Part shown: piece by piece, positions 1,513 to 35,612 of the stretch
Layout of the letters: every line of letters starts with the position of its first letter
Numbering within the stretch: the first letter of the stretch is position 1
Source of the DNA: Pseudokineococcus marinus
GTDB lineage: Bacteria > Actinomycetota > Actinomycetes > Actinomycetales > Quadrisphaeraceae
Assembly (NCBI RefSeq): GCF_013004605.1
Contig: NZ_JABEMA010000005.1
Location: 1-43,126 of the forward strand
Direction of reading: 5' to 3'
Length of the DNA stretch: 43,126 bases
The notes under the pieces: generated by a model
Databases searched by the model: none
What the model saw: the letters and a program-made list of their open reading frames with translations, nothing else
What the model was told of the DNA's origin: nothing
Made by a program: the position numbers and the translations under genes

Positions 1513-1524
1513 TCCGACTGGTGC

Positions 1525-9721: not shown

Positions 9722-9760
9722 GTGATGTCGAAGACGCAGGCCTCGCCAGGCGTCTACCGT
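9722..9760 (+). promoter_or_regulatory. Promoter of propeller/PKD gene 2 (AGACGC-N17-TACCGT)
   Basis: GTGA at 9722-9725, AGACGC at 9732-9737 and TACCGT at 9755-9760 reproduce the arrangement at 6248-6286 with identical spacing. The predicted leader is about 46 nt. It implies that the two paralogues are transcribed separately but co-regulated. Confidence 0.55.
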
Positions 9761-9812
9761 CGGTGATGACGCGGGGGCCATCGAGGCACTCGCTGCGGGG
9801 ACGGGGAGTGGC

Positions 9813-15554: not shown

Positions 15555-15604
15555 CGGAGCAGATTGCCACCTCCGCGCAGGCCAGCTCGGTAGGTGATGG
15601 CCAG

Positions 15605-16624: not shown

Positions 16625-16827
16625 GCCGCCACCTCTCTGCCTCACGCCGTCGTCAGACGTGAGTGGTTTGCTCCCATGTCACCCGGATGGAGCAGTGACC
16701 GGCGTGGAAGGTAAGCCCTCACCACGTCTTCGTCCAGAGGGGTCGGCAGGACGGAGCCGCACCTGTAGGTTCCAGGCACCTGGCTGGGAGGCTGCTCCGC
16801 GGCCCTGAGCAGGCTCGGAGCGCCCCC

Positions 16828-17631: not shown

Positions 17632-17634
17632 TGC

Positions 17635-17657
17635 TCCGGCGTCCGGGTGACGCCGGA
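17635..17657 (+). terminator. Terminator-like hairpin after sulfotransferase 1
   Basis: The 9-bp perfect stem TCCGGCGTC/GACGCCGGA has a 5-base loop and begins three bases after the stop codon. No U-tract follows. Confidence 0.5.
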
Positions 17658-17685
17658 CGGTCGACCCATGGGTCACACCTATGCT
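17657..17685 (+). promoter_or_regulatory. Candidate promoter of the polysaccharide operon
   Basis: TATGCT at 17680-17685 is a good actinobacterial -10 hexamer and sits between the terminator-like hairpin and the Wzz-type gene, giving a leader of about 45 nt. The hexamer 17 bp upstream (ACGGTC) is a poor -35, so confidence is limited. Confidence 0.4.
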
Positions 17686-17737
17686 TGGTCCTCTCATGCC
17701 TGCGCGGACCGAGGAGCGCCCGCAGCGAGGGGGGCCG

Positions 17738-19231: not shown

Positions 19232-19234
19232 CGC

Positions 19235-20581: not shown

Positions 20582-21810
20582 CCGGCGCTCCTCTCGGCTC
20601 GCAGACCGTGTCGGCGCAACGACGAGTCGAGGCCGTCGTGCGCAGGCTCCACGCCGGCGCGCCGCTCGTCCACGACGGCCGGTCCGCGGCGGAGGAGTCA
20701 ACCGTGCGGTACGTCCTGCTCCCCTCGGCGTCCCGACCGCGGTTAGTGCTGCCTGCCGAGGCACCCCGAGCGGCGGCCGCCGCACTGGGACGACTGTTGC
20801 AGGGCGGTGGCCGACGGCGCGTCTTCCGAGGCGCTGCCGTCGCTGTCGCCCGCAGCGGCCTCCTCGGCCGGTGGCCGGGGGCGACACTCACCGTCCCGCA
20901 GACGTCGCGCTCCGTCGTCGCCCGCCTCGCCGACGCAGTCGACGAAACAGAGCTGGTGCTCACCATGCGCCTCGGCCCACCGCGCGCGAACTGGAAGCCG
21001 GTGGCGCAGGTGACGGACCGCGCAGGGCGGGTGCTCGCCTTCGTCAAGATCGGCCACGACGAGCTCACGAGCACTCTGGTCCGGCACGAGTCTGACGCGC
21101 TGCACCTCCTCGCGGAGAGACCCCTGGCGGACGTCCGCGTACCTGAGGTGCGCGGCACAGTGCAGCAGGACGACCTCGTCGCCCTCGTGCTGAGCCCGCT
21201 GGAGGCGCCCGAGCCGCCAGCCGGCGACGCGGCGACGCGGCGGGTCCTCCTCGACGTGGTCAGCGCCATCGCAGCCCCCGACCGCCGGGCACGGCAGCCG
21301 TGGGGCGCCAGCGCCTTCGCCGGAGGACTCGCGAGGAGGCTGGCAGCGGCGGGAGCAAGAGCTCTGCCCGCCGCCCAGCTCCTCCGGCGACTCATGGACG
21401 AGCGCGGCGGGGAGGAGTTGACCTTCGCGCCCTGGCACGGCGACCTCAACCCGGGCAACGTCCGACTGGCCGCGCGGGGTCCCTCCGTGGTCTGGGACTG
21501 GGAGCGCTACAGCGAGGGCGTCCCCCTCGGCCTCGACCTCCTCCACCACGACCTGACGTCGGCGATGGACGTGCAGCCACCGGTGGCTGCTGCGGCGAGC
21601 CTGGCGAGCCGGTCGCGCGCCGGACTCGAGTCGCTGGGCCTGACATCTTCGGACGTCCTCCTCGTCACTGCGCTGCACCTGCTCGAGCTGGTGACGCGGT
21701 ACCTCGAGGACCGGCAGGATCAGGCAGGGTCACCGCTCGGCAGGATCGAGGAGTGGGCGCTGCCCGCGCTGGAGACGACGGTTCGCGAGGCAGTGGAGGA
21801 GCACAGGTGA
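20578..21810 (+). CDS. Aminoglycoside-phosphotransferase-fold protein, function unknown
   Basis: A 410-residue soluble protein whose C-terminal half has the APH/choline-kinase fold: FAPWHGDLNPGNVRLA supplies the HGDxxxxN catalytic loop and VVWDWERYSEG the metal-binding DWE. The N-terminal half (about 1-130) is not recognisable; LAFVKIGHDEL may hold the ATP-binding Lys. It overlaps the polymerase gene stop by ATGA and its own stop overlaps the following sulfotransferase start by GTGA, so it is tightly coupled to polysaccharide genes. A drug-resistance role is unlikely here; phosphorylation of a sugar, lipid carrier or nucleotide sugar precursor is more plausible, but no substrate can be named. 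It contains a TTA leucine codon at 20743-20745 (residue 56). Confidence 0.72.
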   Translation: MTGAPLGSQTVSAQRRVEAVVRRLHAGAPLVHDGRSAAEESTVRYVLLPSASRPRLVLPAEAPRAAAAALGRLLQGGGRRRVFRGAAVAVARSGLLGRWPGATLTVPQTSRSVVARLADAVDETELVLTMRLGPPRANWKPVAQVTDRAGRVLAFVKIGHDELTSTLVRHESDALHLLAERPLADVRVPEVRGTVQQDDLVALVLSPLEAPEPPAGDAATRRVLLDVVSAIAAPDRRARQPWGASAFAGGLARRLAAAGARALPAAQLLRRLMDERGGEELTFAPWHGDLNPGNVRLAARGPSVVWDWERYSEGVPLGLDLLHHDLTSAMDVQPPVAAAASLASRSRAGLESLGLTSSDVLLVTALHLLELVTRYLEDRQDQAGSPLGRIEEWALPALETTVREAVEEHR

Positions 21811-22673
21811 AGGTCTCACGCAGCAGGATCGAGCAGACGGCGAGAGCAGCCCTCCTGCGGGCGTCGGACGTCCCCCGCCGGGCTACCGCCTCCCTGCGCC
21901 TTGAGCCGGACTTCCTGATCGTGGGGGCGCAGCGCTGCGGCACCACCTCGATGTTCAAGACGCTGGCCCAGCACCCGTCGGTGGCTCCGCCCTTCCTCCG
22001 CAAGGGCGTCCACTACTTCGACAAGAACCGCGACCGCGACCACCTCTGGTACCGCAGCCACTTCCCCGTGGCGGCGACGTCGCGGCTGCGCCGCTCGGGT
22101 GCCCGACCGATCACCGGTGAGTCGAGCCCGTACTACATGTTCCACCCGACGGCCGCGGCCCGGATCGCCGACGAGCTGCCCCAGGTTCGCCTCATCGCGC
22201 TGCTCCGCGACCCGGTGGAGCGCGCGTACTCGAGCCACAGCCACGAGTCGGCTCGCGGGTACGAGACCGAGTCCTTCCCGCGAGCCCTCGAGCTGGAGGA
22301 CAGCCGGACGTCGGGCGAGCGCGAGGCCATGCTGGCCGACCCGGCCTACGACAGCTTCTCCCTTCAGCACCACGCATACCTCGCCCGCGGTCGCTACGTC
22401 GAGCAGCTGCGGCGGCTCGAGGGAATCGTCGGGCGGGATCGCCTCCTCGTCGTCGACAGCCAGGACTTCTTCGACTCGCCCGAGGGCGTCTTCCCCGCCG
22501 TGTGCCGCCACCTCGGACTGGCGCCGCACGAGGACATCAGCTTCGAGCGTCACAACGCACGAGGACGCTCGCCCATGGACGCCGGGCTGCGCCGCGAGCT
22601 GGAGGAGCACTTCGCCCCCTTCGACGACGAGCTGGCCTCCTGGTGGGGGCGGACCCCGTCCTGGCGACGGTGA
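21807..22673 (+). CDS. Sulfotransferase family protein 2 (heparan-sulfate-sulfotransferase-like)
   Basis: A 288-residue sulfotransferase of the group related to carbohydrate N- and O-sulfotransferases. DFLIVGAQRCGTTSMFKTLAQHP (about residues 35-57) is the PAPS 5'-phosphosulfate loop; KGVHYFDKN and GESSPYYMFHP are typical of this group; LIALLRDPVERAYSSHSHE holds the 3'-phosphate-binding Arg and Ser. The C-terminal RSPMDAGLRRELEEHFAPFDDELASWW is the usual tail. The GTG at 21807 overlaps the preceding stop and has GGAGGAGCACAG before it. It transfers sulfate from PAPS, most likely to a sugar of the locus polysaccharide, on the cytoplasmic side before flipping; the acceptor is inferred. Confidence 0.9.
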   Translation: MKVSRSRIEQTARAALLRASDVPRRATASLRLEPDFLIVGAQRCGTTSMFKTLAQHPSVAPPFLRKGVHYFDKNRDRDHLWYRSHFPVAATSRLRRSGARPITGESSPYYMFHPTAAARIADELPQVRLIALLRDPVERAYSSHSHESARGYETESFPRALELEDSRTSGEREAMLADPAYDSFSLQHHAYLARGRYVEQLRRLEGIVGRDRLLVVDSQDFFDSPEGVFPAVCRHLGLAPHEDISFERHNARGRSPMDAGLRRELEEHFAPFDDELASWWGRTPSWRR

Positions 22674-24247
22674 GCGCGCCGGGCCCGACGGCGGGGACGG
22701 ACGTCCCGCCGACGACCGGCGCACCCGGTCCTCGGACGACGGACCTGGGCCGCGTCGCGCGCGGTGGAGCGCTCAACCTCGCGGGAAGCGTCGTCACGGC
22801 CGCGGCCGCCTTCGGCTTCACGGTCCTCGTCACGCGCAGCCTCCCGGCGGCCGAGGCCGGCACGCTCTTCACCCTCACGAGCGTCTTCGTCGTCGCCTAC
22901 TCCACGGCCCGCCTGGGCGCACCCACAGGACTCGTCTACTTCCTCGCCCGCCAGCGGGCCACGGGCGAGCAGCGCCTGCTGGCCGTGACGGTGCACCAAG
23001 CGGTCGCAGTCGTCGCCGTCGTCGCCGTGGTCGTCGGCGTCCTCGGGCTCGTCCTGGCCGGGCCAATCGTGGAGGCGGCGGTCGGTGAGCAGCGCCCCGG
23101 AGCCGTCACGCTCACCCGCGTGCTGGCCGCCTGCCTCGTGGCCGCCGCCCTCGGCGACGTCTGGGTCGGCGCCACCCGGGGCATGGGAGCCATGCGCCCC
23201 CTCGTCGCCCTGGAGAAGGTCGCCCGCCCGCTGCTGCAGATCCTCGGCGCGGGAGCGGTGCTCCTCCTCGGATGGGCCGACCCGCTCTCCCTGGGGCTCG
23301 CATGGGTGCTGCCCTTCGTCGTCACCAGCGCCGGTCTGGCCCTGTGGTCGCGGCGCCTGCGCGCGGGCGTCGAGGCGCGGCAGGGCATCGGTCCCCAGGA
23401 CCGCGGCCGGGCGCGGGACGTCATCGGGTCCTTCTGGCGCTTCTCCGGCCCGCGCAGCATCACGGGCCTGTGCCAAACGGTGCTCCAGCGCGCGGACATC
23501 GTCGTCGTCGCCGCGGTCCGCGGGCCCGCGGACGCGGCCGTCTACGCGGCCGCGACGCGCTTCCTCGTCGTGGGGCAGCTGGGCGCGGGGGCCGTCGGGT
23601 CGAGCATCCAACCCAAGATCGCCAGCCTGGTCGCCCGGCAGGACGTCGCCGGCGCGCGAGACCTCTACCGCGTCTCGACCACCTGGTTGGTGCTCCTCAC
23701 CTGGCCGCTCTACCTGCTGACGGCCGTGCACGCGCAGGACCTGCTGCGGGTCTTCGGCACCGGGTACGCTGACGGCGCCGTCGTGGTCGTCGTCCTGAGC
23801 CTCGTCATGCTCGTCGCGACGGGGTGCGGCTCCGTCGACGTCGTCCTCACCATGGCGGGGCGGACGTCGTGGGTCATGGGGAACGCCGTGCTGGGCCTGA
23901 CGACCAACCTCGTCCTCCTGGCGCTCCTCGTCCCGCCGTTGGGCGTCCTGGGAGCGGCGCTCGCGTGGGCGGCCGCCATCCTCGTGAACAACCTGCTCCC
24001 GCTCGCCCAGCTCGCGATCTCCCTGGACATCCACCCCCTGGGCCGCTCCTCGGCGACGGCGGCGCTCCTGGCGGTCGGGTGCTTCGGCGTGTTCCCCCTC
24101 CTCGGCCGGCTGACCCTCCCGCACGAGCTCGTCGCCCAGCTGCTGGTCGTCGCCCTCGCGGTCGGGCTCTACGCCGCGCTGGTCCTGCGCGGACGCCGGC
24201 TCCTCGCCGTGGACGCGCTCGTGTCGCTGCGTCGGAGGACTCGATGA
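22670..24247 (+). CDS. Polysaccharide flippase (Wzx/MOP-superfamily)
   Basis: A 525-residue membrane protein with 12-14 hydrophobic helices, of the MOP/polysaccharide transporter family that flips undecaprenyl-linked oligosaccharides across the membrane. After a Pro/Thr-rich cytoplasmic N-terminus (about 1-25) come GGALNLAGSVVTAAAAFGFTVLVTR, the family-type first helix, and later FWRFSGPRSITGLCQTVLQRADIVVVAAV, the start of the second half with its usual R-A-D pattern. The GTG at 22670 overlaps the sulfotransferase stop as GTGA; its stop overlaps the next sulfotransferase as ATGA. Placement between two sulfotransferases suggests that sulfated or sulfation-ready repeat units are the cargo, which is inference. 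Confidence 0.9.
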   Translation: MSAPGPTAGTDVPPTTGAPGPRTTDLGRVARGGALNLAGSVVTAAAAFGFTVLVTRSLPAAEAGTLFTLTSVFVVAYSTARLGAPTGLVYFLARQRATGEQRLLAVTVHQAVAVVAVVAVVVGVLGLVLAGPIVEAAVGEQRPGAVTLTRVLAACLVAAALGDVWVGATRGMGAMRPLVALEKVARPLLQILGAGAVLLLGWADPLSLGLAWVLPFVVTSAGLALWSRRLRAGVEARQGIGPQDRGRARDVIGSFWRFSGPRSITGLCQTVLQRADIVVVAAVRGPADAAVYAAATRFLVVGQLGAGAVGSSIQPKIASLVARQDVAGARDLYRVSTTWLVLLTWPLYLLTAVHAQDLLRVFGTGYADGAVVVVVLSLVMLVATGCGSVDVVLTMAGRTSWVMGNAVLGLTTNLVLLALLVPPLGVLGAALAWAAAILVNNLLPLAQLAISLDIHPLGRSSATAALLAVGCFGVFPLLGRLTLPHELVAQLLVVALAVGLYAALVLRGRRLLAVDALVSLRRRTR

Positions 24248-25260
24248 CGGACGCCCCCGTACGACGTCAGCGGCAGGCACGCGAGTCCGAGGGTCCGCGG
24301 GTCCTCTTCCTCGGGGGCCTCGGTCGCAGCGGCTCCACGCTCGTCGAGCGGATGATCGCCGAGCTCCCCGGGGTCGCCCCGCTGGGCGAGGTGGTGCACC
24401 TCTGGGAACGAGGGCTGCTGGAGGACCAGCAGTGCGGCTGCGGGCGCTCCTTCCACGCCTGCCCCTTCTGGCGGGCCGTAGGCCGGGAGGCCTTCGGCGG
24501 GTGGGACCGCGTGGACGGCCACCACGTGCTGCAGCTGCGTCACGCCGTCGACCGGACGCGCTTCGTGCCGCTGCTCCTGCTGCCGCATCTGACCCGACGC
24601 CGCGGCGAAGTCCTCTCCGAGTACCTCTCCTACTACGAGCGGGTGTACGCAGCCGCACTGGACGTCTCGGGGGCCCGGGTGGTCGTCGACTCCAGCAAAC
24701 ACCTCTCGCTCGCCGCCTGCCTGCGCCGCTCGAGCGTCGTCCGGTTGAGGACCGTGCAGATGGTGCGCGACTCCGCCGGCGTCGCGCACTCGTGGGGCAA
24801 GAGGGTGATCCGGCCCGAGATTACGGACCGCGTCGAGTACATGCCCGTCTACAGTCCGCTGCACGTCGCCCTGCTGTGGTCGTTCACCAACGCGGCGCTG
24901 CGGCTCGTCACCACCGCCGGCTCGCGCCCCCTCGTCCTGCGGTACGAGGACGTGGTCCGCGCACCCCGCGAGGCGCTGGCGTCGGTGGCGCAGCACGCGG
25001 GTCTGCCGCTCGACGACGGCGCTGTCGACTTCGTCGACGGCCTCGACGTCCACCTCACGTCCTCGCACACCGTCGCCGGCAACCCCATGCGCTTCCGGAC
25101 CGGCAACCTCTCCCTCCGCCGGGACGACGCCTGGCGGACCGACATGAAGCCCTCGACAAGGGCTCTCGTCCACCTGCTGACCCTGCCGGTGCGAGCGCTC
25201 CTGGGCTACGCCGGACCCGCGGCGTCCTCGGACGACCGCCGTGACGAGAGGAGTCGTTGA
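24244..25260 (+). CDS. Sulfotransferase family protein 3
   Basis: A 338-residue sulfotransferase-fold protein distinct from the other two. VLFLGGLGRSGSTLVERMIAELPGV (about residues 20-44) is the P-loop-like PAPS site, and RTVQMVRDSAGVAHSWGKRV contains the 3'-phosphate-binding Arg/Ser region. A Cys-rich CGCGRSFHACPFW segment (about 62-74) and VVVDSSKH are typical of this actinobacterial subgroup. LRYEDVVRAPREAL matches the C-terminal family motif seen also in sulfotransferase 1. It begins within the flippase stop (ATGA) and ends within the start of the GT2 gene (TGATG). With two other sulfotransferases this suggests more than one sulfation position; the acceptors are unknown. Confidence 0.86.
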   Translation: MTDAPVRRQRQARESEGPRVLFLGGLGRSGSTLVERMIAELPGVAPLGEVVHLWERGLLEDQQCGCGRSFHACPFWRAVGREAFGGWDRVDGHHVLQLRHAVDRTRFVPLLLLPHLTRRRGEVLSEYLSYYERVYAAALDVSGARVVVDSSKHLSLAACLRRSSVVRLRTVQMVRDSAGVAHSWGKRVIRPEITDRVEYMPVYSPLHVALLWSFTNAALRLVTTAGSRPLVLRYEDVVRAPREALASVAQHAGLPLDDGAVDFVDGLDVHLTSSHTVAGNPMRFRTGNLSLRRDDAWRTDMKPSTRALVHLLTLPVRALLGYAGPAASSDDRRDERSR

Positions 25261-26189
25261 TGCCCGAGCCACTGTCCGCCCCACCGAGCGTCACCGTCGT
25301 CATCCCCACCAAAGACCGCCCCGAGCTGCTCCTCCGGGCCATCGCCGCCGTCCAGGACCAGGACTACGAGGGCGTGGTGGAGACGGTGGTCGTCGTGGAC
25401 GAGGGCGGCCGGACGCCGGACGGGATGCCCTCGCGGCCGGGGCGCCCGCTCTCCGTCGTCGCCAACGACCGCTCGCCCGGGCTCGCCGGCGCCCGCAACG
25501 CGGGGGTGGACCGCGTGAGCACGCCCTTCGTCGCCTTCTGCGACGACGACGACGTCTGGCACCCGTCGAAGCTGCGTCGGCAGGTCGCGGCGGTCCAGCA
25601 GGTCCCGGGCGCGGTGCTGGTCACCTGCGGCATCCGGGTCGTCTACGAGCAGACGACCGTCGTCCGCGCGCTGCCGCGAACGCGCATCGGCTTCGACGAC
25701 CTGCTGCGCTCACGGCTCACCGAGCTGCACCCCTCGACCTTCCTCCTCGACACCGCCCGCCTCCGATCGCAGGTCGGCCCGGTGGAGGAGGACATCCCGG
25801 GGAGCTACGCCGAGGACTACGACTTCCTCCTCCGCGTCGCGCGCGCCTCCCCCGTGGTCAACCTGCCCGAGGCGATGGTCGACGTGCACTGGCACCGGCG
25901 CTCGTACTTCGCGGGACGGTGGGACACCATCTCGGCCGCTCTCCGGTGGCTGCTGGCGCGCTACCCCGAGTTCGACCGCGAGCCCGCCGGAAGAGCGCGC
26001 GTCCTCGGCCAGATCGCCTTCGCGGACGCCGCCGCCGGCCGGCGGCGGGGAGCAGTGGCCGTGGCCGTCCGCGCGCTGAGGGACCGACCGCAGGAGCTGC
26101 GGGCCGTGGTCGCCCTGGCCGTGGCGACGGGCCTCGTGCGTCCCGCCTGGGTCCTGGCCGCGCTCCACCGCCGGGGCCGCGGCGTCTGA
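25260..26189 (+). CDS. Family 2 glycosyltransferase
   Basis: A 309-residue GT-A-fold glycosyltransferase. SVTVVIPTKDRPELLLRAIAAVQDQ opens the nucleotide-binding fold, RSPGLAGARNAGVD follows, and FVAFCDDDDVWHPSKL holds the DxD-type metal and sugar-nucleotide site; SYAEDYDFLLRVA resembles the ED motif that supplies the catalytic base region. It adds one sugar to the lipid-linked repeat unit in the cytoplasm; donor and acceptor are not predictable. The ATG at 25260 shares a base with the preceding stop (TGATG). It is the last gene of the operon and is followed by a perfect 17-bp hairpin. Confidence 0.9.
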   Translation: MPEPLSAPPSVTVVIPTKDRPELLLRAIAAVQDQDYEGVVETVVVVDEGGRTPDGMPSRPGRPLSVVANDRSPGLAGARNAGVDRVSTPFVAFCDDDDVWHPSKLRRQVAAVQQVPGAVLVTCGIRVVYEQTTVVRALPRTRIGFDDLLRSRLTELHPSTFLLDTARLRSQVGPVEEDIPGSYAEDYDFLLRVARASPVVNLPEAMVDVHWHRRSYFAGRWDTISAALRWLLARYPEFDREPAGRARVLGQIAFADAAAGRRRGAVAVAVRALRDRPQELRAVVALAVATGLVRPAWVLAALHRRGRGV

Positions 26190-26195
26190 ACGACG

Positions 26196-26232
26196 GAAGG
26201 ACGGGCGGGGTCCGAGACCCCGCCCGTCCTTC
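26196..26232. terminator. Bidirectional terminator between convergent genes
   Basis: Arms 26196-26212 and 26216-26232 form a perfect 17-bp stem (GAAGGACGGGCGGGGTC) with a 3-base CGA loop. It lies seven bases after the GT2 stop and eleven before the stop of the convergent GH26-like gene, so it can serve both. Confidence 0.8.
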
Positions 26233-26242
26233 GTGGCACTAG

Positions 26243-27766
26243 TCAGCCGCCGCAGACCGCCCAGCGCCAGGCCTGCGCGGACGCCTCGTCGAGGAGGCGG
26301 AACTCACCGCCCACCGGGGCGTCGAAGTAGATGGCCCACCGGGCGTCGTTCTGGCGGAGCCACGTCGCCGAGTCGCGGATCCAGGCGGCACGCCGCACAC
26401 CCGTGTCACCGGCGACCAGGAGGCTTCCCATCTCGGCGATGCCGTAGGGCTTCCCCACGGAGTCGGACGCCGCCTTGGCGACGCCGAAGACACTCGCGGG
26501 CGAGGCGTACTGGCCGGAGTTGGCGCCGTGGTTGTAGCAGTCCCAGCCCATCTCGTCGACGACGTCGTCGCCCGGGTAGTAGTCCTTCCAGTTGCGGCGG
26601 GAGGCCGGGTTGAGGCTCCAGCACATCAGGACCGGCGTGGCCTTGAGTCGGTCGTTCTTCGCCTCGGTCGCGAGACGGTCGAGGTGCCGCCACGCCGCCC
26701 GGTAGTCGGCCGCCGTGAAGCTGCCGCGCTCGATGTCGTCCTCAGGCTCGTGGAAGTAGGTCCAGTTCACCTGGCGGTCGCGCGGCGCGGTGGCGAACCA
26801 CGTGCGGAGGCGGCTGTCGTACGTGCCAGCGAGGATGTCGCGCGGCGGGGCCTTGAAGGAGACGACCACTGGCTTGCCGCTCAGGCCCGCGTCCCCAGGC
26901 CACGTGCCCGGCAGGCCGGAGAAGAAGTACCGGCTCACCCCGAAGGTCCCGTACCTCTCCTGCTGACGCTGGAAGGCCGTGGCGTAGGTCTCGCCGGCGT
27001 TGCGGTAGGCGTTCGCCCCGAAGAGGGTCGGCACCTCGCTGACCGGCGCGGGGGCCGGGGGCGGGGTGACCGGTGTCGGCGCCGGGGGCGGCGTGACCGG
27101 CGTCGGCGCCGGGGGCGGCGTGACCGGCGTCGGCGCCGGGGGCGGCGTCGTGGGCGCCGGCGGGGTCGGGTCGGGCGTGACGAGGGAGTAGGTGACCACG
27201 AGCTTGGGCGCCGTGGCGGCGCCGGACTCGCGGCTGAGGATCTCGCTGACGCCCGAGGGCACGGTCACGGAGAAGTTGAGAGGAAGGCTCTTCGCGACGT
27301 GGCCGGTGACGTCCACGGTGAAGGCTTTGGCCGTCTTGGGGAACGAGACCGAGGTGACGCTCCCCGTGCTCGCGGGAGCCGTCTTCCAGGTGACCTTCTT
27401 CTCGTCCCACGATGAGGAGCCGAGGCTCTGCACGTCGACACGGCCGGGCTGGGTGCGCGTCGAGCTGACGCGGATCTCCGCCTTCGTGATCTTCGCGCCC
27501 GCGGGCACGCGGGGGGCCGGGAAGCGGATGAGCGCCCGCTTCGTCATCGCCGACGTGGACGCCGCGACGACCTTGGTGCTGGTCCCGGTGGTCCGGTCCG
27601 GCGCCTGCTTCTCGACGTAGGCGTCGGCGGAGGCGGTGCTGGTCACCGTCCCCGTCGTCGTGGCGGCCTGGGACGAGGGCACGCCCACGAGGGCGCTCCC
27701 CGCGACGGCGGCGGTGGCGGACAGGGCGAGCAGGGAACGGCGCGCGCGCCGATGCTTCGCGGTCAT
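26243..27766 (-). CDS. Secreted DNRLRE-domain/GH26-like glycoside hydrolase
   Basis: A 507-residue exported modular enzyme. Signal peptide (SSQA-AT, about residue 34); a DNRLRE-type beta-sandwich (about 40-195; ASADAYVEKQAPDRTTGTS, KRALIRFPAP), a domain linked in other enzymes to polysaccharide binding; a Pro/Thr linker (about 196-247) containing three exact TPVTPPPAP-type repeats; and a GH26-like barrel (about 248-507). WTYFHEPEDD near residue 338 and YGIAEMGSLL near 444 fit the acid/base and nucleophile glutamates. The ATG at 27766 follows GAGGAG by five bases. It is convergent with the polysaccharide operon and divergent from the APS kinase gene. It may trim or release the locus polysaccharide; the substrate is unknown. 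Confidence 0.82.
   Translation of the reverse strand: MTAKHRRARRSLLALSATAAVAGSALVGVPSSQAATTTGTVTSTASADAYVEKQAPDRTTGTSTKVVAASTSAMTKRALIRFPAPRVPAGAKITKAEIRVSSTRTQPGRVDVQSLGSSSWDEKKVTWKTAPASTGSVTSVSFPKTAKAFTVDVTGHVAKSLPLNFSVTVPSGVSEILSRESGAATAPKLVVTYSLVTPDPTPPAPTTPPPAPTPVTPPPAPTPVTPPPAPTPVTPPPAPAPVSEVPTLFGANAYRNAGETYATAFQRQQERYGTFGVSRYFFSGLPGTWPGDAGLSGKPVVVSFKAPPRDILAGTYDSRLRTWFATAPRDRQVNWTYFHEPEDDIERGSFTAADYRAAWRHLDRLATEAKNDRLKATPVLMCWSLNPASRRNWKDYYPGDDVVDEMGWDCYNHGANSGQYASPASVFGVAKAASDSVGKPYGIAEMGSLLVAGDTGVRRAAWIRDSATWLRQNDARWAIYFDAPVGGEFRLLDEASAQAWRWAVCGG
27066..27146 (-). repeat. 27-bp tandem repeat in the Pro/Thr linker of the GH26-like gene
   Basis: Three consecutive 27-bp units (27066-27092, 27093-27119, 27120-27146), the last two identical and the first differing by one base. 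Each encodes a TPVTPPPAP unit. Diverged partial units flank the array. Confidence 0.9.
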
Positions 27767-27813
27767 GGCGTCTCCTCGAGAGGTGGGTAGCGGGGTGGTG
27801 TGCCACTGCTCTC

Positions 27814-27832
27814 GACCCCCGCCGAGGGGGTC
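27814..27832. other. Hairpin in the divergent intergenic region (27767-28000)
   Basis: GACCCCC and GGGGGTC form a perfect 7-bp stem around GCCGA. The same region has four CGGGGTG or CACCCCG copies in both orientations (near 27791, 27835, 27897 and 27921), which may be operator-like sites for the two divergent genes. No clear promoter hexamers were found. Confidence 0.3.
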
Positions 27833-28000
27833 TGCACCCCGCCCTCACCTCGGTTGCCGAGGCCACAGCCGAACGGCGCATCGCCTGTACGCCGCCGGGG
27901 TGAAGAAGGGGCGGGCTGCTCACCCCGCCGGACGTCCGCCCCCGAGCCGCCGGACTGCGCCGTCGCCGAGAAGGGCGGACGGACCGGGCAAGATGCTCCC

Positions 28001-29398
28001 GTGCAGCGAGCGCGTGACGGTCAACCCCTCCGAGTCGACGACGCGGGGGCGGAGCTCGTCGACCTGCTCGCGCGGTCCGGCCTGGAGGCGTCCCTCTCCT
28101 GGACGGGCGGCGTGTGGCGCGTCGAGCCGGCCGAACCGGGCGCCGGCGTGCGCCTCGACCTCGCCGACGCGGAGCTCACCGGCGGCGAAGAGCTGGTGGT
28201 CGTCGACCCCGAGCTGGTGCCGTTCGCCGCCCTGGCGATCACCCGGGCCGACGGTTCTCGACAGGCCTCCGACCGGACGGTGTCAGGACGCCTGCGCCCG
28301 CTCGCCGGGCGCACCGCCGCCACCTACCCCGGGCTCGAGGTCGACGGGAGCCCGGGCGGGCGCCTCACCGGGGTGCACGTGGTCGTGACCGACCGACTCC
28401 TGCTGGAGGCTGACGTGGCGGCGGTGGGCGCCGCCCTCGACGCCCTCCCCCTCGTCCTCCTCGGGCTCGTCGGGGAGGGTCGGCCCACCCCTCGAGAGGT
28501 CCTCGCTCGCGGCCTCGACGCCGTCGCCGCCGACCTGGCGACCCAGCTCGGAGCTGAGGTGGGCGTGGCGCTGCTCAGCCTGCCCGCGGTGGAAGGCGCC
28601 GACGTCGCGCTGCTGCCGGCGTTGCTCGAGCGAGCGGGCGCGGCTCGCACCTCACGCGCCCGAGCGCTGGCGCGGACCGGGCCCCACAGCCAGGGCGCCG
28701 TCGGCCCTCTGGACGGCGGTCCGACGTCGGCGACCTGGGACGAGGTGGTCGACGCCCTCGAGCGCGGGGCGGACGTCCCGGCCGGCACCGCCTCCCCCGC
28801 CGTGGTGCGCGAGCTGCGGCGGCTCCACCCCGCACGACACGCACGAGGGGCCGTGATCCTGTTCACCGGCCTGTCGGGCTCGGGGAAGTCCACGGTCGCG
28901 TCGGGGGTCGTGGCGGCGCTGCGCGCCGAGGGCAGCCGGACCGTCACCGTCCTCGACGGCGACCGCGTGCGGACGATGCTCTCCTCGGGCCTGACCTTCT
29001 CCCGGGAGGACCGCGATCTCAACGTCCGCAGGATCGGCTACGTGGCCGCGGAGGTGGCCCGCCACGGGGGCACGGCCGTGTGCGCCCCCATCGCGCCCTA
29101 CGCGTCGACGCGGGCGGAGGTCCGGAGGATGGTGGAGGAGGCCGGGGGCGTGCTGGTCCTCGTGCACGTGGCCACACCCCTGGAGGTGTGCGAGGCACGG
29201 GACCGCAAGGGCCTCTACGCGAAGGCGCGCCGTGGCGAGATCCCCGCCTTCACGGGTGTGAGCGACCCCTACGAGGCGCCGACGGACGCCTCTCTCGTCC
29301 TCGACACCAGTCGGCAGGGGCTCGAGGAGTGCGTCTCCGCCGTCATGGCGCTCCTCCGGGAGGAGGGGCTGGTGCTCGCGCCCGCCCCGGCCCCGTAG
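28001..29398 (+). CDS. cysC: Adenylylsulfate (APS) kinase with long N-terminal extension
   Basis: A 465-residue protein whose C-terminal part (about 285-465) is an APS kinase: ILFTGLSGSGKST is the Walker A loop, VTVLDGDRVRTMLSSGLTFS the APS-binding segment, RDLNVRRIGYVAAEVARHGG and KGLYAKARRGEIPAFTGVSDPYE the lid and product-binding region. It phosphorylates APS to PAPS, the donor used by the three sulfotransferases nearby. The roughly 280-residue N-terminal region is far longer than a plain CysC of about 200 residues; it has no convincing catalytic motif but may be a diverged ATP-sulfurylase-like or regulatory module. The GTG at 28001 is my choice; no strong ribosome binding site marks it, and the upstream in-frame extension looks non-coding. 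It converges on the PssE gene with one base between stops. Confidence 0.88.
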   Translation: MQRARDGQPLRVDDAGAELVDLLARSGLEASLSWTGGVWRVEPAEPGAGVRLDLADAELTGGEELVVVDPELVPFAALAITRADGSRQASDRTVSGRLRPLAGRTAATYPGLEVDGSPGGRLTGVHVVVTDRLLLEADVAAVGAALDALPLVLLGLVGEGRPTPREVLARGLDAVAADLATQLGAEVGVALLSLPAVEGADVALLPALLERAGAARTSRARALARTGPHSQGAVGPLDGGPTSATWDEVVDALERGADVPAGTASPAVVRELRRLHPARHARGAVILFTGLSGSGKSTVASGVVAALRAEGSRTVTVLDGDRVRTMLSSGLTFSREDRDLNVRRIGYVAAEVARHGGTAVCAPIAPYASTRAEVRRMVEEAGGVLVLVHVATPLEVCEARDRKGLYAKARRGEIPAFTGVSDPYEAPTDASLVLDTSRQGLEECVSAVMALLREEGLVLAPAPAP

Positions 29399-30014: not shown

Positions 30015-30613
30015 AGCAGCGGTCCCACCACGGTCGCCCGCGGGTAGAAGGCCAGCTGCTCCTCCCACTGCACGAGCATCCGCGTCGTGAAGGGCCGGCA
30101 CAGCCGCCCCGTGAGCGTCGGCCCGTCGAGACGGTCGAAGACCTCGACGTAGACGGTCGGCACGCCGAGAGCACGGGCGAGGACGAAGAAGGGCACCGCC
30201 ACCGCCGCCCCTGACGAGATCACCACGTCGGGACGCCTGTCGCGCAGCACGTCCCACGCCAGTCGGGTGTTGCGGAGGAGGTTGCGCACGTTCCTCGTCG
30301 TCGGGTGGTGGGCGGGGATGAGCGCCTCGTCGGCGAGGAGGCTGAGGGCGTCCTCGGTGTCGAAGCACACCCACCGGCGCCGGCTCTCGACGAGCTCGGA
30401 GGAGAGCGTGACGAGCTGCGCGAGGTGCCCCCCGCTCGAGCAGACGAGCAGGACGTCCGGCGGCACGCGCCGGTCGTCGCCTCCCGCCGCCCGCTGGCGG
30501 GGGGCGACGCCCACGCGGCGCTCCACCAGCGCGTGGCCGCGCTCCGCCGTCGTGGACGACCGGCGACGGACGCGCGGCGCCGCGTCCTCCCCCGTCCTCG
30601 TGAAGAGGCTCAT
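30011..30613 (-). CDS. PssD/Alg14-like glycosyltransferase partner subunit
   Basis: A 200-residue protein with the Alg14/PssD pattern: DVLLVCSSGGHLAQLVTL (about residues 53-70; the GGH motif), PDVVISSGAAVAVPFFVLARALG and VPTVYVEVFDRLDGPTLTGRL. Alg14-type proteins anchor the Alg13-like catalytic partner to the membrane and bind the acceptor lipid. The N-terminal 50 residues are polar and Arg-rich rather than a clear membrane helix. The ATG at 30613 lies in the cysN stop (ATGA), and the stop overlaps the PssE start. Its coupling to cysN links sugar transfer to activated sulfate production. Confidence 0.85.
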   Translation of the reverse strand: MSLFTRTGEDAAPRVRRRSSTTAERGHALVERRVGVAPRQRAAGGDDRRVPPDVLLVCSSGGHLAQLVTLSSELVESRRRWVCFDTEDALSLLADEALIPAHHPTTRNVRNLLRNTRLAWDVLRDRRPDVVISSGAAVAVPFFVLARALGVPTVYVEVFDRLDGPTLTGRLCRPFTTRMLVQWEEQLAFYPRATVVGPLL

Positions 30614-31929
30614 TCCGCGGCCGTGATCATCCCGGCGCCCACCGTCCTGTTGGTGCCCTCGTCGATGAGGACGAACCCGCCCGTCGTGCGGTTGCGACGG
30701 TACTCGTCGGCCAGCAGCGGCGCGGTGGTCCGCAGCCGGATGCGCCCGATCTCGTTGAGCCCCAGCTGGGTCGAGGACTCGTCGCGGTGGAGCGTGTTGA
30801 CGTCGAGCCGGTACTGCAGCTCCTTCACGACGGCGCGCGCCGTCCGCGTCGTGTGCTTGATCGCGTACTTCCGGCCCGGCACGAGCGCCGACGACTCGTC
30901 CATCCAGCTGACCATCGCGTCGATGTCCTGGCTCGGCGTCGGGGCGTTGTGCGGCCGGCAGATCATGTCGCCGCGCGAGACGTCGAGCTCGTCCTCCAGC
31001 CGCACGGTCACCGACATGGGCGGGAAGGCCTCGGCCACCGGCCCGTCCGCCGTCTCGATGGAGGCGATCCGCGTCGTGAAGCCCGAGGGCAGCACCATGA
31101 CCTCGTCGCCCGGCTTGAGGACGCCGCCGGAGACCTGCCCCGCGTAGCCGCGGTAGTCCAGGTGGCGGCCGGACTGCGGCCGGATGACGTACTGCACGGC
31201 GAAGCGCGCGTCGACGAGGTTGCGGTCGCTCGCCACGTGCACGTGCTCGAGGTGGTGCAGCAGGCTCGGCCCGTCGTACCACGGGGTGCGCGAGGAGCGG
31301 GACACGACGTTGTCGCCCTCGAGCGCCGAGACCGGGATGACCGTGAGGTCGGGCACCTCGAGCTTCGTGGCGAAGGAGGCGAAGTCCCGCCGGATGCCCT
31401 CGAAGACCTCCTCGGAGAAGTCGACGAGGTCCATCTTGTTCACCGCGAGCACGAGGTGCGGGACCTGCAGCAGCGTCGCGAGGAACGCGTGTCGGCGCGA
31501 CTGCTCGACGAGGCCCTTGCGGGCGTCGACGAGGATGAGCGCCAGGTCGGCCGTGGAGGCTCCCGTGACCATGTTGCGCGTGTACTGGATGTGGCCCGGG
31601 GTGTCCGCGATGATGAACTTCCGCCGCGGCGTCGCGAAGTAGCGGTAGGCCACGTCGATGGTGATGCCCTGCTCGCGCTCCGCGCGCAGGCCGTCGGTGA
31701 GCAGCGCGAGGTTGGTGTACTCGTCGCCGCGGTCGCGGCTGGCGCGCTCGACGGACTCGATCTGGTCCTCGAAGACGGTCTTCGTGTCGTAGAGCAGTCG
31801 CCCGATGAGGGTGCTCTTGCCGTCGTCGACGGAGCCGGCCGTCGCGAAGCGCAGCAGGTCGGCGTCCCGCTGCATGGCGACGGGAGCGCCGGCGACGGGC
31901 TCGGTCGGCTCGCTGGTGTGCGTGCTCAT
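30610..31929 (-). CDS. cysN: Sulfate adenylyltransferase large (GTPase) subunit
   Basis: A 439-residue translation-factor-type GTPase. ATAGSVDDGKSTLIGRLLYD is the G1 loop, REQGITIDVAYRYF the switch I region, ADTPGHIQYTRNMVTGAS the G3 box, and AVNKMDL the G4 box, followed by EF-Tu-like beta-barrel domains. With CysD it forms ATP sulfurylase, driving APS formation from ATP and sulfate by GTP hydrolysis. Length is that of a stand-alone CysN with no fused APS kinase; that activity is encoded separately at 28001. Its start shares a base with the cysD stop (TGATG) and its stop overlaps the PssD-like gene (ATGA). Confidence 0.97.
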   Translation of the reverse strand: MSTHTSEPTEPVAGAPVAMQRDADLLRFATAGSVDDGKSTLIGRLLYDTKTVFEDQIESVERASRDRGDEYTNLALLTDGLRAEREQGITIDVAYRYFATPRRKFIIADTPGHIQYTRNMVTGASTADLALILVDARKGLVEQSRRHAFLATLLQVPHLVLAVNKMDLVDFSEEVFEGIRRDFASFATKLEVPDLTVIPVSALEGDNVVSRSSRTPWYDGPSLLHHLEHVHVASDRNLVDARFAVQYVIRPQSGRHLDYRGYAGQVSGGVLKPGDEVMVLPSGFTTRIASIETADGPVAEAFPPMSVTVRLEDELDVSRGDMICRPHNAPTPSQDIDAMVSWMDESSALVPGRKYAIKHTTRTARAVVKELQYRLDVNTLHRDESSTQLGLNEIGRIRLRTTAPLLADEYRRNRTTGGFVLIDEGTNRTVGAGMITAAE

Positions 31930-32855
31930 CAGAAGTACCCCTCGCGCTTGCGGTCCTCCATGGCGGACTCGCTGAACTTGTCGTCGCCGCGGGTGGCCCC
32001 GCGCTCGGTGATCCGCGTCGTCGCGACCTCCTCGACGATCTTCTCGACCGTGTCGGCCTCGGAGCGGACGGCGGCCGTGAGGCTGGCGTCGCCCACCGTG
32101 CGGTAGCGGACCCGCGCGGTGAAGACCTCCTCGCCCTCCCGCGGGCGGCAGACCTCGTGGACGGCGAAGAGCATCCCGTTCCGCTCGAAGACCTCGCGGT
32201 CGTGGGCGAAGTAGATGGCGGGCAGCTCGATGCCCTCAGCCGCGATGTAGGACCAGATGTCGAGCTCGGTCCAGTTCGAGAGCGGGAAGACGCGGATGGA
32301 CTCCCCCGGGTGGATGCGCCCGTTGTAGAGCCCCCACAGCTCCGGCCGCTGGTTCTTGGGGTCCCACTGCCCGAAGTCGTCGCGGAAGCTGAAGATGCGC
32401 TCCTTGGCCCGCGCCTTGTCCTCGTCGCGGCGGGCCCCGCCGAAGACCGCCGTGTAGCCGCCCTTCTCGAGGGCGTCGAGGAGGACGGGCGTCTGGATGC
32501 GGTTGCGCGTGCCGTCCGGCGGCTCGGTGACGAGACCGCGCTCCAGGGCGTCGGGGACGCTCGCGACGACGAGCTGCAGGCCCAGCTGGGCCGCGCGGCG
32601 GTCGCGCAGGTCGAGGACCTCGGCGAAGTTGTGGCCCGTGTCCACGTGCAGGACCGGGAAGGGGATGGGCGCCGGCGCGAAGGCCTTCTCGGCCAGGCGC
32701 AGCATGACGATCGAGTCCTTGCCGCCCGAGAAGAGCAGGACGGGGCGCTCCAGCTCCGCGACGACCTCGCGGATGATGAAGATGGCCTCGGCCTCGAGGG
32801 CCTGCAGCTGGGTGAGCTGGTAGCGGCCGGCGGAGGGCGTGCCGGGGGAGGTCAT
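31929..32855 (-). CDS. cysD: Sulfate adenylyltransferase small subunit
   Basis: A 308-residue PP-loop ATP pyrophosphatase that adenylates sulfate to APS. VLLFSGGKDSIVMLRLAEKAF is the SGGKDS PP-loop, followed by VLHVDTGHNF, FGGARRDEDKARAKERIFSFRD and PLSNWTELDIWSYI, all diagnostic of CysD; the C-terminus ends in the typical EDRKREGYF. The ATG at 32855 overlaps the cysQ stop (ATGA), which fixes the start and excludes the much longer in-frame upstream extension. It acts with the downstream cysN. In this context the product APS is most likely passed to the CysC-type kinase for PAPS, though feeding sulfur assimilation as well is possible; no APS/PAPS reductase is in the window. Confidence 0.97.
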   Translation of the reverse strand: MTSPGTPSAGRYQLTQLQALEAEAIFIIREVVAELERPVLLFSGGKDSIVMLRLAEKAFAPAPIPFPVLHVDTGHNFAEVLDLRDRRAAQLGLQLVVASVPDALERGLVTEPPDGTRNRIQTPVLLDALEKGGYTAVFGGARRDEDKARAKERIFSFRDDFGQWDPKNQRPELWGLYNGRIHPGESIRVFPLSNWTELDIWSYIAAEGIELPAIYFAHDREVFERNGMLFAVHEVCRPREGEEVFTARVRYRTVGDASLTAAVRSEADTVEKIVEEVATTRITERGATRGDDKFSESAMEDRKREGYF

Positions 32856-33673
32856 CGGGCGGTCTCCGGGGTCGGTGCGGTCTGGTCGGACGGGCGGGCC
32901 GCCACCCGGGCGATGGCGGCGAGCACGCGCTCGGCCACCTCGGGGCGGGCGACGACGAGGTCGGGCAGCGTCGGGTCGGGGCGGTTGTAGACCAGCGGCG
33001 AGCCGTCGACCCGGCTCGTGTGGAGCCCGGCGGCCCGCGCGACGGCGACGGGCGCCGCGGAGTCCCACTCGTACTGCCCGCCGGCGTGCACGTAGGCGTC
33101 GGCCTCGTCGCGCAGCACCGAGGTCGCCTTCACGCCGGCCGACCCCATGGGGACGAGCTCGGCGCCCAGCTCCTCGGCGAGGGCGGTGACGAAGGCGGGC
33201 GGCCGGGAGCGGCTCACCGCGAGGCGGACGACGTCGGGGGCGCCCTCGGGCCGCTGCGGCGCCGGGTCGGTGGAGTAGGTCGTGCCCGCGGCGGGCATCG
33301 CCACCGCGCCGGCGACGAGCTCGCCGTCCTCCCACAGCGCCACGTGGACCGCCCAGTCGGTGCGGGCGGGGACGCCGTCGCCACCGACCTCGGAGAACTC
33401 CCGGGTGCCGTCGAGCGGGTCGACGATCCAGACGCGGCGGGAGGTGAGGCGGACGGGGTCGTCGGCGGCCTCCTCCGAGAGGACGGCGTCCTCGGGGCGG
33501 TGCTCGGCGAGGAAGGCGGCGAGCGCCTCCTGGGCGCTGCGGTCGCCGGCGTCCTTGATCTCCCGCCCACCGCGGCCCTCCGCCGCGAGGCGCTCGCGCA
33601 CGGCGAGCAGCACGCGACCGGCCTCGTCGGCTGCCTGGCGCGCCAGGTCGGCGTCGCTGGTGGCGGTCGGCAT
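32852..33673 (-). CDS. cysQ: 3'(2'),5'-bisphosphate nucleotidase CysQ-like
   Basis: A 273-residue inositol-monophosphatase-superfamily enzyme. SEEAADD and WIVDPLDGTREFSEV supply the metal-binding EE and DPxDGT motifs, and the C-terminal EWDSAAPVAVARAAGLH matches the WD(S/T)xA motif. CysQ-type enzymes hydrolyse PAP, the by-product of sulfotransferases, to AMP and so relieve product inhibition; a few family members act on inositol phosphates instead. Placement first in an operon with cysD and cysN, beside three sulfotransferase genes, supports PAP as the substrate. The ATG at 33673 follows AGGAGG by about eight bases. Confidence 0.92.
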   Translation of the reverse strand: MPTATSDADLARQAADEAGRVLLAVRERLAAEGRGGREIKDAGDRSAQEALAAFLAEHRPEDAVLSEEAADDPVRLTSRRVWIVDPLDGTREFSEVGGDGVPARTDWAVHVALWEDGELVAGAVAMPAAGTTYSTDPAPQRPEGAPDVVRLAVSRSRPPAFVTALAEELGAELVPMGSAGVKATSVLRDEADAYVHAGGQYEWDSAAPVAVARAAGLHTSRVDGSPLVYNRPDPTLPDLVVARPEVAERVLAAIARVAARPSDQTAPTPETAR

Positions 33674-33745
33674 GGTCGGGTCCTCCTGTGCTTCGTCGCG
33701 GGCGTCCGCGCCGTGGGTGCGGAGGCATGTCCACCTCGTCCCGGA

Positions 33746-33767
33746 AGGCTATCCGCCGTCGACGGCG
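33746..33767 (-). promoter_or_regulatory. Candidate promoter and 14-bp palindrome upstream of cysQ
   Basis: The perfect palindrome CGCCGTCGACGGCG (33754-33767) lies next to a minus-strand TAGCCT -10-like hexamer (plus positions 33746-33751), so a bound repressor would cover the promoter. No clear -35 is seen. Alternatively the whole operon is read from the sugar transferase gene upstream. Confidence 0.35.
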
Positions 33768-33850
33768 CGTGTCCGCGTGTTCACCCATCGGCTCACGCGC
33801 TGTCACCGGACGGCCTAACCACTCCTCGGTGCGCGGGCGGCCGTGGACGC

Positions 33851-35428
33851 TCAGTAGGCGCCCGACCGCCCCAGCACCGCTCGGGCGGTCTTCCACAGGA
33901 TGAGCGCGTCCATCGCCAGCGACCAGTTGTCGACGTACCGCAGGTCGAGCCGCATGGACTCCTCCCAGGAGAGGTCCGCGCGCCCGCTCACCTGCCAGAG
34001 GCCGGTGAGCCCCGGGCGCACCCGCAGCCGCAGGTGCACGGAGTCGTGGTACTCGACGTACTCGCGCGGCAGCGGCGGTCGGGGTCCGACGAGGGACATG
34101 TCGCCGCGCACGACGTTCCACAGCTGCGGCAGCTCGTCGAGCGAGAAGCGGCGCAGCACGCGGCCCACCGGGGTGACGCGCGGGTCCGCCTTCATCTTGA
34201 ACATGAGGCCGTCGCGGTCGCTCTGGTCGGTGAGGTCGTCGACCTGCCGGTCCGCGCCCACGACCATGCTGCGGAGCTTGTACATCGTGAAGAGGGAGCC
34301 GTCGACGCCCACCCGCTCCTGGGCGAAGAAGGCCGGGCCCGGGCTCGTGAGCCGCACCGCCACCGCGGAGGCCAGGAGCACGGGCGACGCGGCGAGCAGG
34401 AGCAGGGACCCGAGGGTGCGGTCGAGGACCGCCTTGCCCAGCAGGCGGCCCGAGCGCGCCGACGGGCGCTCGACGTGCAGGAGCGACAGGCCGGCGGCGG
34501 GGCGCAGGTGCACCGACGGGCCGGTCACCTCGACGAGCCCGGGGGCGACGACGAGGTCGGCGCCGGTGGGCTCGAGCGCCCACGAGAGCCGGCGCAGGGC
34601 CGGCCCCGACAGGTGGGAGCCCACGACGATGACGACGTCGACGTCGTGGTCCACGACCGCCTGCGGCACCTCGGCGACCGCGCCGAGGCACGGCGGCTCA
34701 CCCTCGTCGAGCTCCCACTGGTGCGGCAGCGGGACGGCCACGCCGACGACCCGCATGCCGTGGTCGGCGGTCCGGCGGAGGTCGCCGACCACCGACCGGA
34801 CGCTGGAGCCGTCGCCCACGACGAGGGTGCGCAGGGCCGCCGCGCCGTCGGCCCGGCGCTGGCCCCGCAGCCAGACGCGCAGGCGGTGCCGGTGCAGGGC
34901 GGTCAGCAGGGCGACCAGCGGGACGACGACGAGGACCATCCGCCGCGGCACGAGGAGCTGGAGGCTGAAGGAGACGACGCCCACCGCCGCCACGACGGCG
35001 ACCGCGGCGCGCAGGATCGAGGAGAACTCGTCCGGGCCGTCGCCGACGCGGCGCCACTCGTAACCGCGCAGGACGGCGAGGGTGCCCACCCAGCCGGCGG
35101 CCGAGAGGACGGAGAGCCCGACCACGGCGAGGGCGTCGAGCCGCACCCCGACGTCGCGCAGGGTCACGGCGGCGATCGCGACGACGACCAGCGCGACCAC
35201 GGCGTCACCGAGGGCCGCGCGCACGAGGAGCGGCGTCGTCCACGCGGAGCGACGGCGCACCGCCGCGAGGGCGGGGTCGTCGCGGTAGACCTCCCGCTCG
35301 AGCACGAAGGGCGTGCGGTCGGTCCAGGGGCGACGGCTCGGCGCGGGGTGGGCGCGGCGGTCGGGGTCCGGCGGCAGGTCGCCGCCGAGGCGGTCCTCCT
35401 CGACGCGGGGTCCGACGTCAGCGCTCAT
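33851..35428 (-). CDS. Polyprenyl-phosphate sugar-1-phosphate transferase (initiating transferase)
   Basis: A 525-residue member of the exopolysaccharide biosynthesis polyprenyl glycosylphosphotransferase family (WbaP/WcaJ type). It has several N-terminal membrane helices (about 70-180), a central nucleotide-binding-like domain (TLVVGDGSSVRSVVGDLRR), a further helix (about 340-360) and the C-terminal catalytic domain: FFAQERVGVDGSLFTMYKLRSM, RRFSLDELPQLWNVVRGDMS, LVGPRPPLP and RPGLTGLWQVSGR. It transfers a sugar-1-phosphate from a nucleotide sugar to undecaprenyl phosphate, the first step of repeat-unit assembly. The ATG at 35428 is preferred to one six codons upstream because GGAGGTG precedes it. 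cysQ follows on the same strand after 177 bp. A TAGCGT -10-like hexamer lies at 35507-35512. Confidence 0.93.
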   Translation of the reverse strand: MSADVGPRVEEDRLGGDLPPDPDRRAHPAPSRRPWTDRTPFVLEREVYRDDPALAAVRRRSAWTTPLLVRAALGDAVVALVVVAIAAVTLRDVGVRLDALAVVGLSVLSAAGWVGTLAVLRGYEWRRVGDGPDEFSSILRAAVAVVAAVGVVSFSLQLLVPRRMVLVVVPLVALLTALHRHRLRVWLRGQRRADGAAALRTLVVGDGSSVRSVVGDLRRTADHGMRVVGVAVPLPHQWELDEGEPPCLGAVAEVPQAVVDHDVDVVIVVGSHLSGPALRRLSWALEPTGADLVVAPGLVEVTGPSVHLRPAAGLSLLHVERPSARSGRLLGKAVLDRTLGSLLLLAASPVLLASAVAVRLTSPGPAFFAQERVGVDGSLFTMYKLRSMVVGADRQVDDLTDQSDRDGLMFKMKADPRVTPVGRVLRRFSLDELPQLWNVVRGDMSLVGPRPPLPREYVEYHDSVHLRLRVRPGLTGLWQVSGRADLSWEESMRLDLRYVDNWSLAMDALILWKTARAVLGRSGAY

Positions 35429-35612
35429 GCGCTCGTGCACCTCCATCGCTGTCGACGGGCTCGTCGTCCGCGGGAGCGGGCGGGTCGGGGTCGCTCGGCC
35501 CCCGGGACGCTACTCAGAGGGAGGGGCCCCGGCGCCCACTTCCCGCAGATCCACCCGGATGGGCCTGCCCCCTCCACCGGAGCCACGGCCAGCCGGCCGA
35601 CGGCACCGCCGC

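Follow-up and report, generated by a model that had tools for sequence, protein, structure and literature searches.

Dead sulfurylase domains attached to APS kinases are already known, from Thiobacillus and Entamoeba. The hexameric enzyme of Thiobacillus denitrificans (3cr8) combines an inactive sulfurylase-like N-domain, a linker and an active C-terminal kinase; according to PMC13213808, its sulfurylase activity is absent and the dead domain is thought to hold the hexamer. The same paper describes the APS kinase of Entamoeba histolytica (23VK, 23VL), in which a dead sulfurylase-like domain likewise precedes the kinase: deletion of that domain lowers kcat about 100-fold and leaves an aggregation-prone protein, and two of its residues contact the kinase of the partner protomer. 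The interface residues include E90 and Y133. Bifunctional ATP sulfurylase/APS kinases (NF004040; Aquifex 2gks; the actinomycete protein L028) have the same domain order and linker, and Penicillium ATP sulfurylase (1i2d, 1m8p) follows the same two-domain plan with one half dead, but there it is the kinase half.

A second line of precedent comes from Actinoplanes missouriensis. As given in PMC13390465, the wps-1 cluster is predicted to direct a sulfated exopolysaccharide, holds Wzx, Wzy, Wzz, sulfotransferases and a GH26 enzyme, and is needed for normal sporangia, while deletion of the adjacent ATPS/APSK-family gene AMIS_7390 causes an unexpectedly severe defect in sporangium formation. In our reading, loss of PAPS supply may explain that defect. 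The same 2026 paper says that, among bacteria, reports of sulfated exopolysaccharide loci had been confined to cyanobacteria; PMC11641403 and PMC11766843 reportedly describe marine bacteria with sulfated capsules.

The window (the whole 43,126-nucleotide stretch of Pseudokineococcus marinus DNA analysed here) encodes an APS kinase, CysC, whose N-terminal half of about 280 residues is, on the strength of sequence comparisons, very probably an ATP sulfurylase domain that has lost catalysis (a pseudo-sulfurylase), fused to the kinase. The three-part layout of 3cr8 is shared, but that enzyme is non-actinobacterial and has an N-domain that can still be recognised with ease (it can be aligned to a Nonomuraea N-half), whereas the N-half in the window is far more decayed. 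The Entamoeba system, as described in PMC13213808, differs in being eukaryotic and mitosomal, in keeping the domain fold intact, and in drawing its APS from a separate ATP sulfurylase that is not CysDN. The open-licence literature searched yielded no paper that describes actinomycete APS kinases with a dead sulfurylase half; as far as searches of that literature show, the new elements are the spread among actinomycetes, the extreme decay, the pattern of CysDN occurrence, the exopolysaccharide link and an exchange boundary at the domain joint.

Reading frame and domain layout

The features of the gene, with the proposed origin of each part, are:

28001-29398 (+): cysC, two-domain APS kinase, 465 aa, GTG start (ORF listing; coding signal from 28001)
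28034-28339 (+): probable PUA-like first-domain remnant of ATP sulfurylase, residues about 12-113 (alignments A3 and A6; hhalign; limits approximate)
28373-28666 (+): probable Rossmann-like catalytic-domain remnant, residues about 125-222 (alignments, hhalign; limits approximate)
28718-28852 (+): linker, apparently from the C-terminal part of ATP sulfurylase (NF004040 alignment; phmmer to 3cr8, 1m8p and 2gks)
28844-29395 (+): APS kinase domain, catalytic landmarks intact (Pfam, phmmer, landmark alignment)

The frame is open over 27800-29398 (+), and an in-frame GTG at 28001 gives a protein of 465 residues. Codon-position G+C is coding-like from this point (0.86/0.54/0.88) and flat upstream (0.76/0.73/0.78), and an open N-half of similar type precedes the kinase in 4/4 genomes of the genus in the collection; the N-half is therefore truly coding. 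Its identity to the closest relative is 46-48%. Translation from near residue 270, which the initial annotation had named as counting against its own reading, is countered by the coding signal from 28001 and by the conservation of the N-half, which also speak against a stand-alone CysC with a spurious upstream frame. PF01583 (APS_kinase, E 1.8e-54) starts at residue 288 of window:27983-29395, or 282 counted from 28001, in agreement with the predicted CysC start near residue 285. The first 287 residues of window:27983-29395 match no Pfam family at E <= 1, and the unexplained N-terminal region of about 280 residues proposed from the sequence is genuine.

Relationship of the N-half to ATP sulfurylase

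The initial annotation had guessed at a decayed ATP-sulfurylase-like fold, a guess that sequence profiles support. An HMM built from 14 relatives, none from the genus of the window, gave the N-half of the window protein 47.2 bits (E 3.8e-13, with a bias term of 23.8 bits), whereas the highest-scoring true decoy of the 3,234 ORFs that passed the filter reached 8.4 bits; seven decoy ORFs that scored >8.4 bits were family members that the decoy filter had missed. Other members of the genus scored 30.7 (L002), 25.5-30.9 (L102) and 8.5 bits (L103) with this HMM, and 1.3, 1.2 and -1.0 bits, respectively, with a genuine-enzyme profile. Profile-profile comparison by hhalign provided a path from the window to genuine enzymes through intermediates. 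Alignment A6, which joins window-type N-halves to L012-L014 (intermediates from a class-wide search with the window-type N-half, A1), matched A7 (L033/L037/L038/L041) with prob 99.7 and E 2.3e-25, collinearly over 270 columns and reaching the linker; A1 itself matched A7 with prob 94.8 and E 4.9e-8. A7 in turn matched A4, the genuine ATP sulfurylases L028 and L030, with prob 99.9 and E 7.7e-37, and the direct comparison of A6 with A4 was weaker (prob 74.8, E 2.6e-5). Two unrelated two-sequence control profiles gave prob 0.1 and E above 0.5. In the Nonomuraea relatives L003-L008 the N-half is plainly ATP sulfurylase by sequence, the L003 N-half matching the first stretch of 3cr8 at E 5e-20 and yeast-type chains at about 4e-16.

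Individual segments can be placed on this alignment. The segment quoted in the initial annotation, VVDPELVPFAALAITRADG, is found at about 28199-28255, where the DPELVPFAAL strand of the PUA-like remnant is retained; the SGAFxPLxGF part present in clearer relatives is missing from this remnant. By hhalign, VVDPELVPFAAL aligns with DPEGVPLAVL of the clearer relatives, and it also aligns with residues 70-92 of 2gks in a match below threshold; as judged from these alignments, it survives from the first, PUA-like domain. The linker reads LERGADVPAGTASPAVVRELRRLHP in the window protein and MRAGLKIPEWYSFPEVLAELHRQTP in 3cr8. NF004040 profile positions 361-570 align to residues 254-464 of window:27983-29395, so that the alignment begins 30 residues ahead of the kinase and runs through the sulfurylase-side linker, as do those to PDB chains 3cr8, 1m8p and 2gks. 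The best PDB sequence match is 3cr8 (E 2.5e-63, residues 249-463 of window:27983-29395 to 329-542). A CysN-type (EF-Tu-like) N-half, as in a CysNC fusion, was rejected: the N-half has no Pfam match, and CysN is a separate gene at 30610-31929.

Loss of the active site and graded decay

At the catalytic RNPxHxxH site, genuine enzymes read TRNPLHRAH (L028) and TRNPMHRAH (L030), while the position is occupied in the window by TDRLLLEADVAAV (TDRLLLEADV) and in relatives by TREPLHRKQ, DRPLHHRAL, ARPLHAHDV, RGPLDEPAL and DGLLHTADV. RNPxHRAH occurs in 2/57 aligned rows, both of them genuine enzymes. The segments that carry GPREA and GRDHAG in genuine enzymes are unrecognisable in the window N-half; the active-site motifs that are intact in bifunctional L028 are absent here. 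We infer from these losses that the N-half no longer has sulfurylase activity. Neither form of an active enzyme survived scrutiny: a bifunctional ATP sulfurylase/APS kinase is rejected by an NF004040 score of 280.5 bits, under the curated cut-off of 669, and by the absent RNPxHxxH and GRDHAG motifs, and an active sulfurylase domain by the lost motifs and by the lack of PF01747 from the window's genome. A clear match to an active catalytic domain, the other result that the initial annotation had named as counting against its reading, was not found in the N-half.

Decay is graded among relatives. By Pfam, L028 has strong PUA_2 and ATP-sulfurylase matches, L033 has both, L003 retains PUA_2 only and L012 a trace (E 0.014), and the N-halves of the window, L002 and L102 gave no Pfam match. 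The steps between L028 and the window form a natural series in which to ask how far a dead domain can erode before it ceases to support a kinase. Between the window and L002, NG86 estimates for the N-half (dN 0.50, dS 0.95) far exceed those for the kinase half (0.024, 0.29). As a separate observation, L124 (G110) has 234 residues before its kinase to which both sulfurylase profiles, pseudo and genuine, show no match; this N-half has either decayed further or been replaced.

Predicted structures

The full-length model, for which the input alignment included Nonomuraea homologues, had a mean pLDDT of 63 and pTM of 0.50 and was weak in the N-half. With that low confidence in the N-half, structure search placed two-domain chains 1m8p, 1i2d, 2gks and 3cr8 at the top (3e-24 to 4e-21), ahead of kinase-only chains at 1e-15 and weaker, and VIA-align superposed 1m8p with Z 25.6 over 394 residues at rmsd 14.2; beneath the ATPS and APSK chains, VIA-align ranked gluconate kinase and further P-loop kinases. 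When the N-half was modelled by itself from a two-sequence alignment (mean pLDDT 48), Foldseek found nothing at E <= 0.001, and the best ATP sulfurylase stood at rank 23 with E 0.99.

The kinase domain

The window kinase retains the P-loop (GLSGSGKST, at about 28868-28894), DGD, RDRKGLYA and similar landmarks, as do almost all of the 91 kinases related to it. A quick maximum-likelihood tree was built from 121 kinase domains, with no bootstrap and with long-branch warnings. It places the 91 kinases to which an ATPS-like N-half is ascribed (a label that for L130-L149 rests on the A10 match leading to them) in one group with the genuine bifunctional L028 and with L124 (SH-aLRT 99), apart from the CysNC fusions. 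Glycine at the position of Entamoeba N345 is tied to open kinase dimers in PMC13213808, a non-glycine residue being its criterion for a closed dimer. This position, placed in the window by phmmer-search alignment, is Gly in 22/22 CysNC proteins and 2/5 stand-alone kinases and in 0/91 of the ATPS-like-N-half group; the window has Met, a non-glycine residue that by sequence predicts a closed kinase dimer on that published rule.

APS supply and spread among actinomycetes

The expectation that cysDN already encodes an ATP sulfurylase was correct: both genes, identified by Pfam and NCBIfam, lie 1.2 kb from cysC in the window.

30610-31929 (-): cysN, GTPase subunit of the other, functional ATP sulfurylase (Pfam, NCBIfam)
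31929-32900 (-): cysD, catalytic subunit with a PAPS_reductase-type fold; 3' part of ORF 31929-34691, start approximate

PF01747 sulfurylase was not found in the window's genome. CysN was present at E <= 1e-60 in 75/77 genomes tested, a set chosen by PUA_2 or A1 match, plus the genus, and including four (G018, G382, G191 and G268) for which the dead fusion is not established. The two CysN-less genomes, G018 and G382, carry strong PF01747, and G153 and G191 have strong PF01747 together with CysN.

With an 18-sequence profile (A10), relatives of the N-half were found in 128/394 actinomycete genomes and 43/138 genera, a count that is inexact (the window's own genome was missed, where 6 of 62 candidates were scored) and that also includes genuine ATP sulfurylases (G018, G382 and the second match in G153) and the weak matches in G151, G221 and G401. 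PUA_2 occurs in 61/394 genomes of the class, and the A1 profile matched in 17/394, including G268 (L020), in which no kinase ORF was found. APS kinases with such an N-half are easily mistaken for bifunctional sulfate-activating enzymes. Separately, G153, which has CysN and a fused kinase, hosts a second, genuine-looking ATP sulfurylase, L031 (G153:C60:224894-225277), with a TGA inside the PUA part.

The adjoining exopolysaccharide cassette

The cysC gene adjoins a sulfotransferase-bearing exopolysaccharide cassette, and the window also holds glycosyltransferases alongside the following genes:

16828-17631 (+): sulfotransferase (PF13469)
17681-19231 (+): Wzz-like polysaccharide gene
19235-20581 (+): Wzy-like polysaccharide gene
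21300-22673 (+): sulfotransferase (PF13469, PF00685)
22502-24247 (+): Wzx-like polysaccharide gene
23824-25260 (+): sulfotransferase (PF13469; only the first 35 family residues matched)
33851-35446 (-): exopolysaccharide priming sugar transferase

We compared 66 fused-kinase loci from 65 genomes (G253 twice; 7-20 kb each) with 20 control loci, comprising 19 CysNC and one stand-alone CysC, by tblastn at E <= 1e-10. A homologue of the window Wzx, Wzz, Wzy or priming transferase was nearby in 29/66 fused-kinase loci versus 0/20 controls, leaving 37/66 with no homologue of these four proteins nearby, and sulfotransferase matches occurred in 9/66 versus 0/20. The architecture is in this way linked to sulfated exopolysaccharide loci. 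Like cysC, AMIS_7390 is an ATPS/APSK-family gene beside a predicted sulfated-exopolysaccharide cluster, according to PMC13390465, and we infer that it has the same architecture as cysC.

Two neighbouring proteins merit mention. A secreted-looking protein beside the cassette (26243-27766, -) has CBM96 and a weak GH26 match, and wps-1 likewise has a GH26 enzyme (PMC13390465). The protein of 20281-21810 (+) has a sub-threshold TCAD9 match, and homologues 29-32% identical stand beside a sulfotransferase in 6/6 Nonomuraea loci; it may correspond to WpsI, a kinase-like protein of Actinoplanes.

Possible role of the dead half

The gene probably descended from a bifunctional ATP sulfurylase/APS kinase. 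CysDN would now make APS, the sulfurylase half having apparently lost its active site, and in the genus of the window decay would have gone so far that no more than an outline of its PUA-like, Rossmann-like and linker regions is left. As the gene content suggests, CysC would phosphorylate APS to PAPS for the sulfotransferases of the adjoining cassette. The dead half may have been retained because it holds the kinase dimer or oligomer, touches the partner kinase and raises turnover, as in the Entamoeba enzyme. We regard the explanation as a whole, a pseudo-sulfurylase N-half that probably supports a working, PAPS-supplying kinase, as likely; for the kinase-supporting role taken by itself the chances are about even. 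Such a role is to be expected from the Entamoeba and Thiobacillus analogues and, where the initial annotation had offered regulation or a scaffold, would be the suggestion best backed by precedent (PMC13213808). An unexplained region becomes a testable pseudo-enzyme.

That the N-half is an unrelated new domain, its likeness to ATP sulfurylase being merely compositional, is extremely improbable: high G+C and low-complexity bias (23.8 bits on the 47.2-bit match), the lack of any Pfam match and an N-half structure model with no match at E <= 0.001 would fit such a domain, but the alignment is collinear for 270 columns through to the linker, and controls from the same kind of genome fail. A pure vestige, functionless and persisting because its loss would need a clean in-frame deletion and a new start site, is unlikely. 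The fast divergence of the N-half (dN 0.50, dS 0.95, versus 0.024, 0.29 in the kinase half by NG86) and the graded decay among relatives agree with a vestige; however, dN/dS in the N-half remains near 0.5, 4/4 genomes of the genus retain an N-half with an open frame, and N-half relatives reach 43/138 genera sampled.

Two further proposals give the dead half a partner or a ligand. It might be a scaffold that docks CysDN or a sulfotransferase and passes APS or PAPS directly onward, which the presence of CysN in 75/77 genomes and the 1.2 kb between cysND and cysC would favour; this is unlikely, since CysN lies in just 20/66 loci within the 7-20 kb around the kinase, and close co-adaptation would not leave CysN 99.8% identical between the window and L002 with the N-half at about 46%. 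Fungal ATP sulfurylase, in which a dead kinase domain is an allosteric regulator (PMC13213808), supplies the precedent for a mirror-image arrangement, a dead half that binds a nucleotide (APS, PAPS or ATP) and switches the kinase. Such a sensor is very improbable in a domain from which the nucleotide-binding RNPxHxxH is gone and in which the GPREA and GRDHAG segments are unrecognisable.

An apparent exchange boundary within cysC

Comparison with the nearest relative, L002 from an uncultured Pseudokineococcus (G006), indicates one further feature:

28860-28885: apparent exchange boundary inside cysC (third-codon-position identity to L002)

Over the 30 codons that precede 28871, third-codon-position identity to L002 is 0.27; beyond that point it is 0.63-0.92. 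At the scale of the locus, DNA identity to L002/G006 is 94-97% over window positions 1-9498 and 90-95% across the repetitive PKD genes to ~14.4 kb, falls to 65-75% across the cassette from 14.8 kb, and is 92.5% rightward to 37.4 kb. The interval 14800-28870 therefore resembles an exchangeable capsule-type locus whose right edge lies within cysC, and the boundary seems, on this one genome pair, to fall at the domain joint. Because identity shifts at ~28871, the N-half would travel with the variable cassette, and the kinase half would belong to the conserved flank. One speculative and distinctly unlikely reading is that the dead half is a cassette-matched adaptor tying PAPS supply to the sulfotransferases of the locus, cysC being a mosaic whose kinase stays with the flank and cysDN; were this so, a capsule swap would also swap half an enzyme. 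To the left, 6244-14432 (+) encodes two large PKD-domain proteins, the second with malectin, that have repeats in common.
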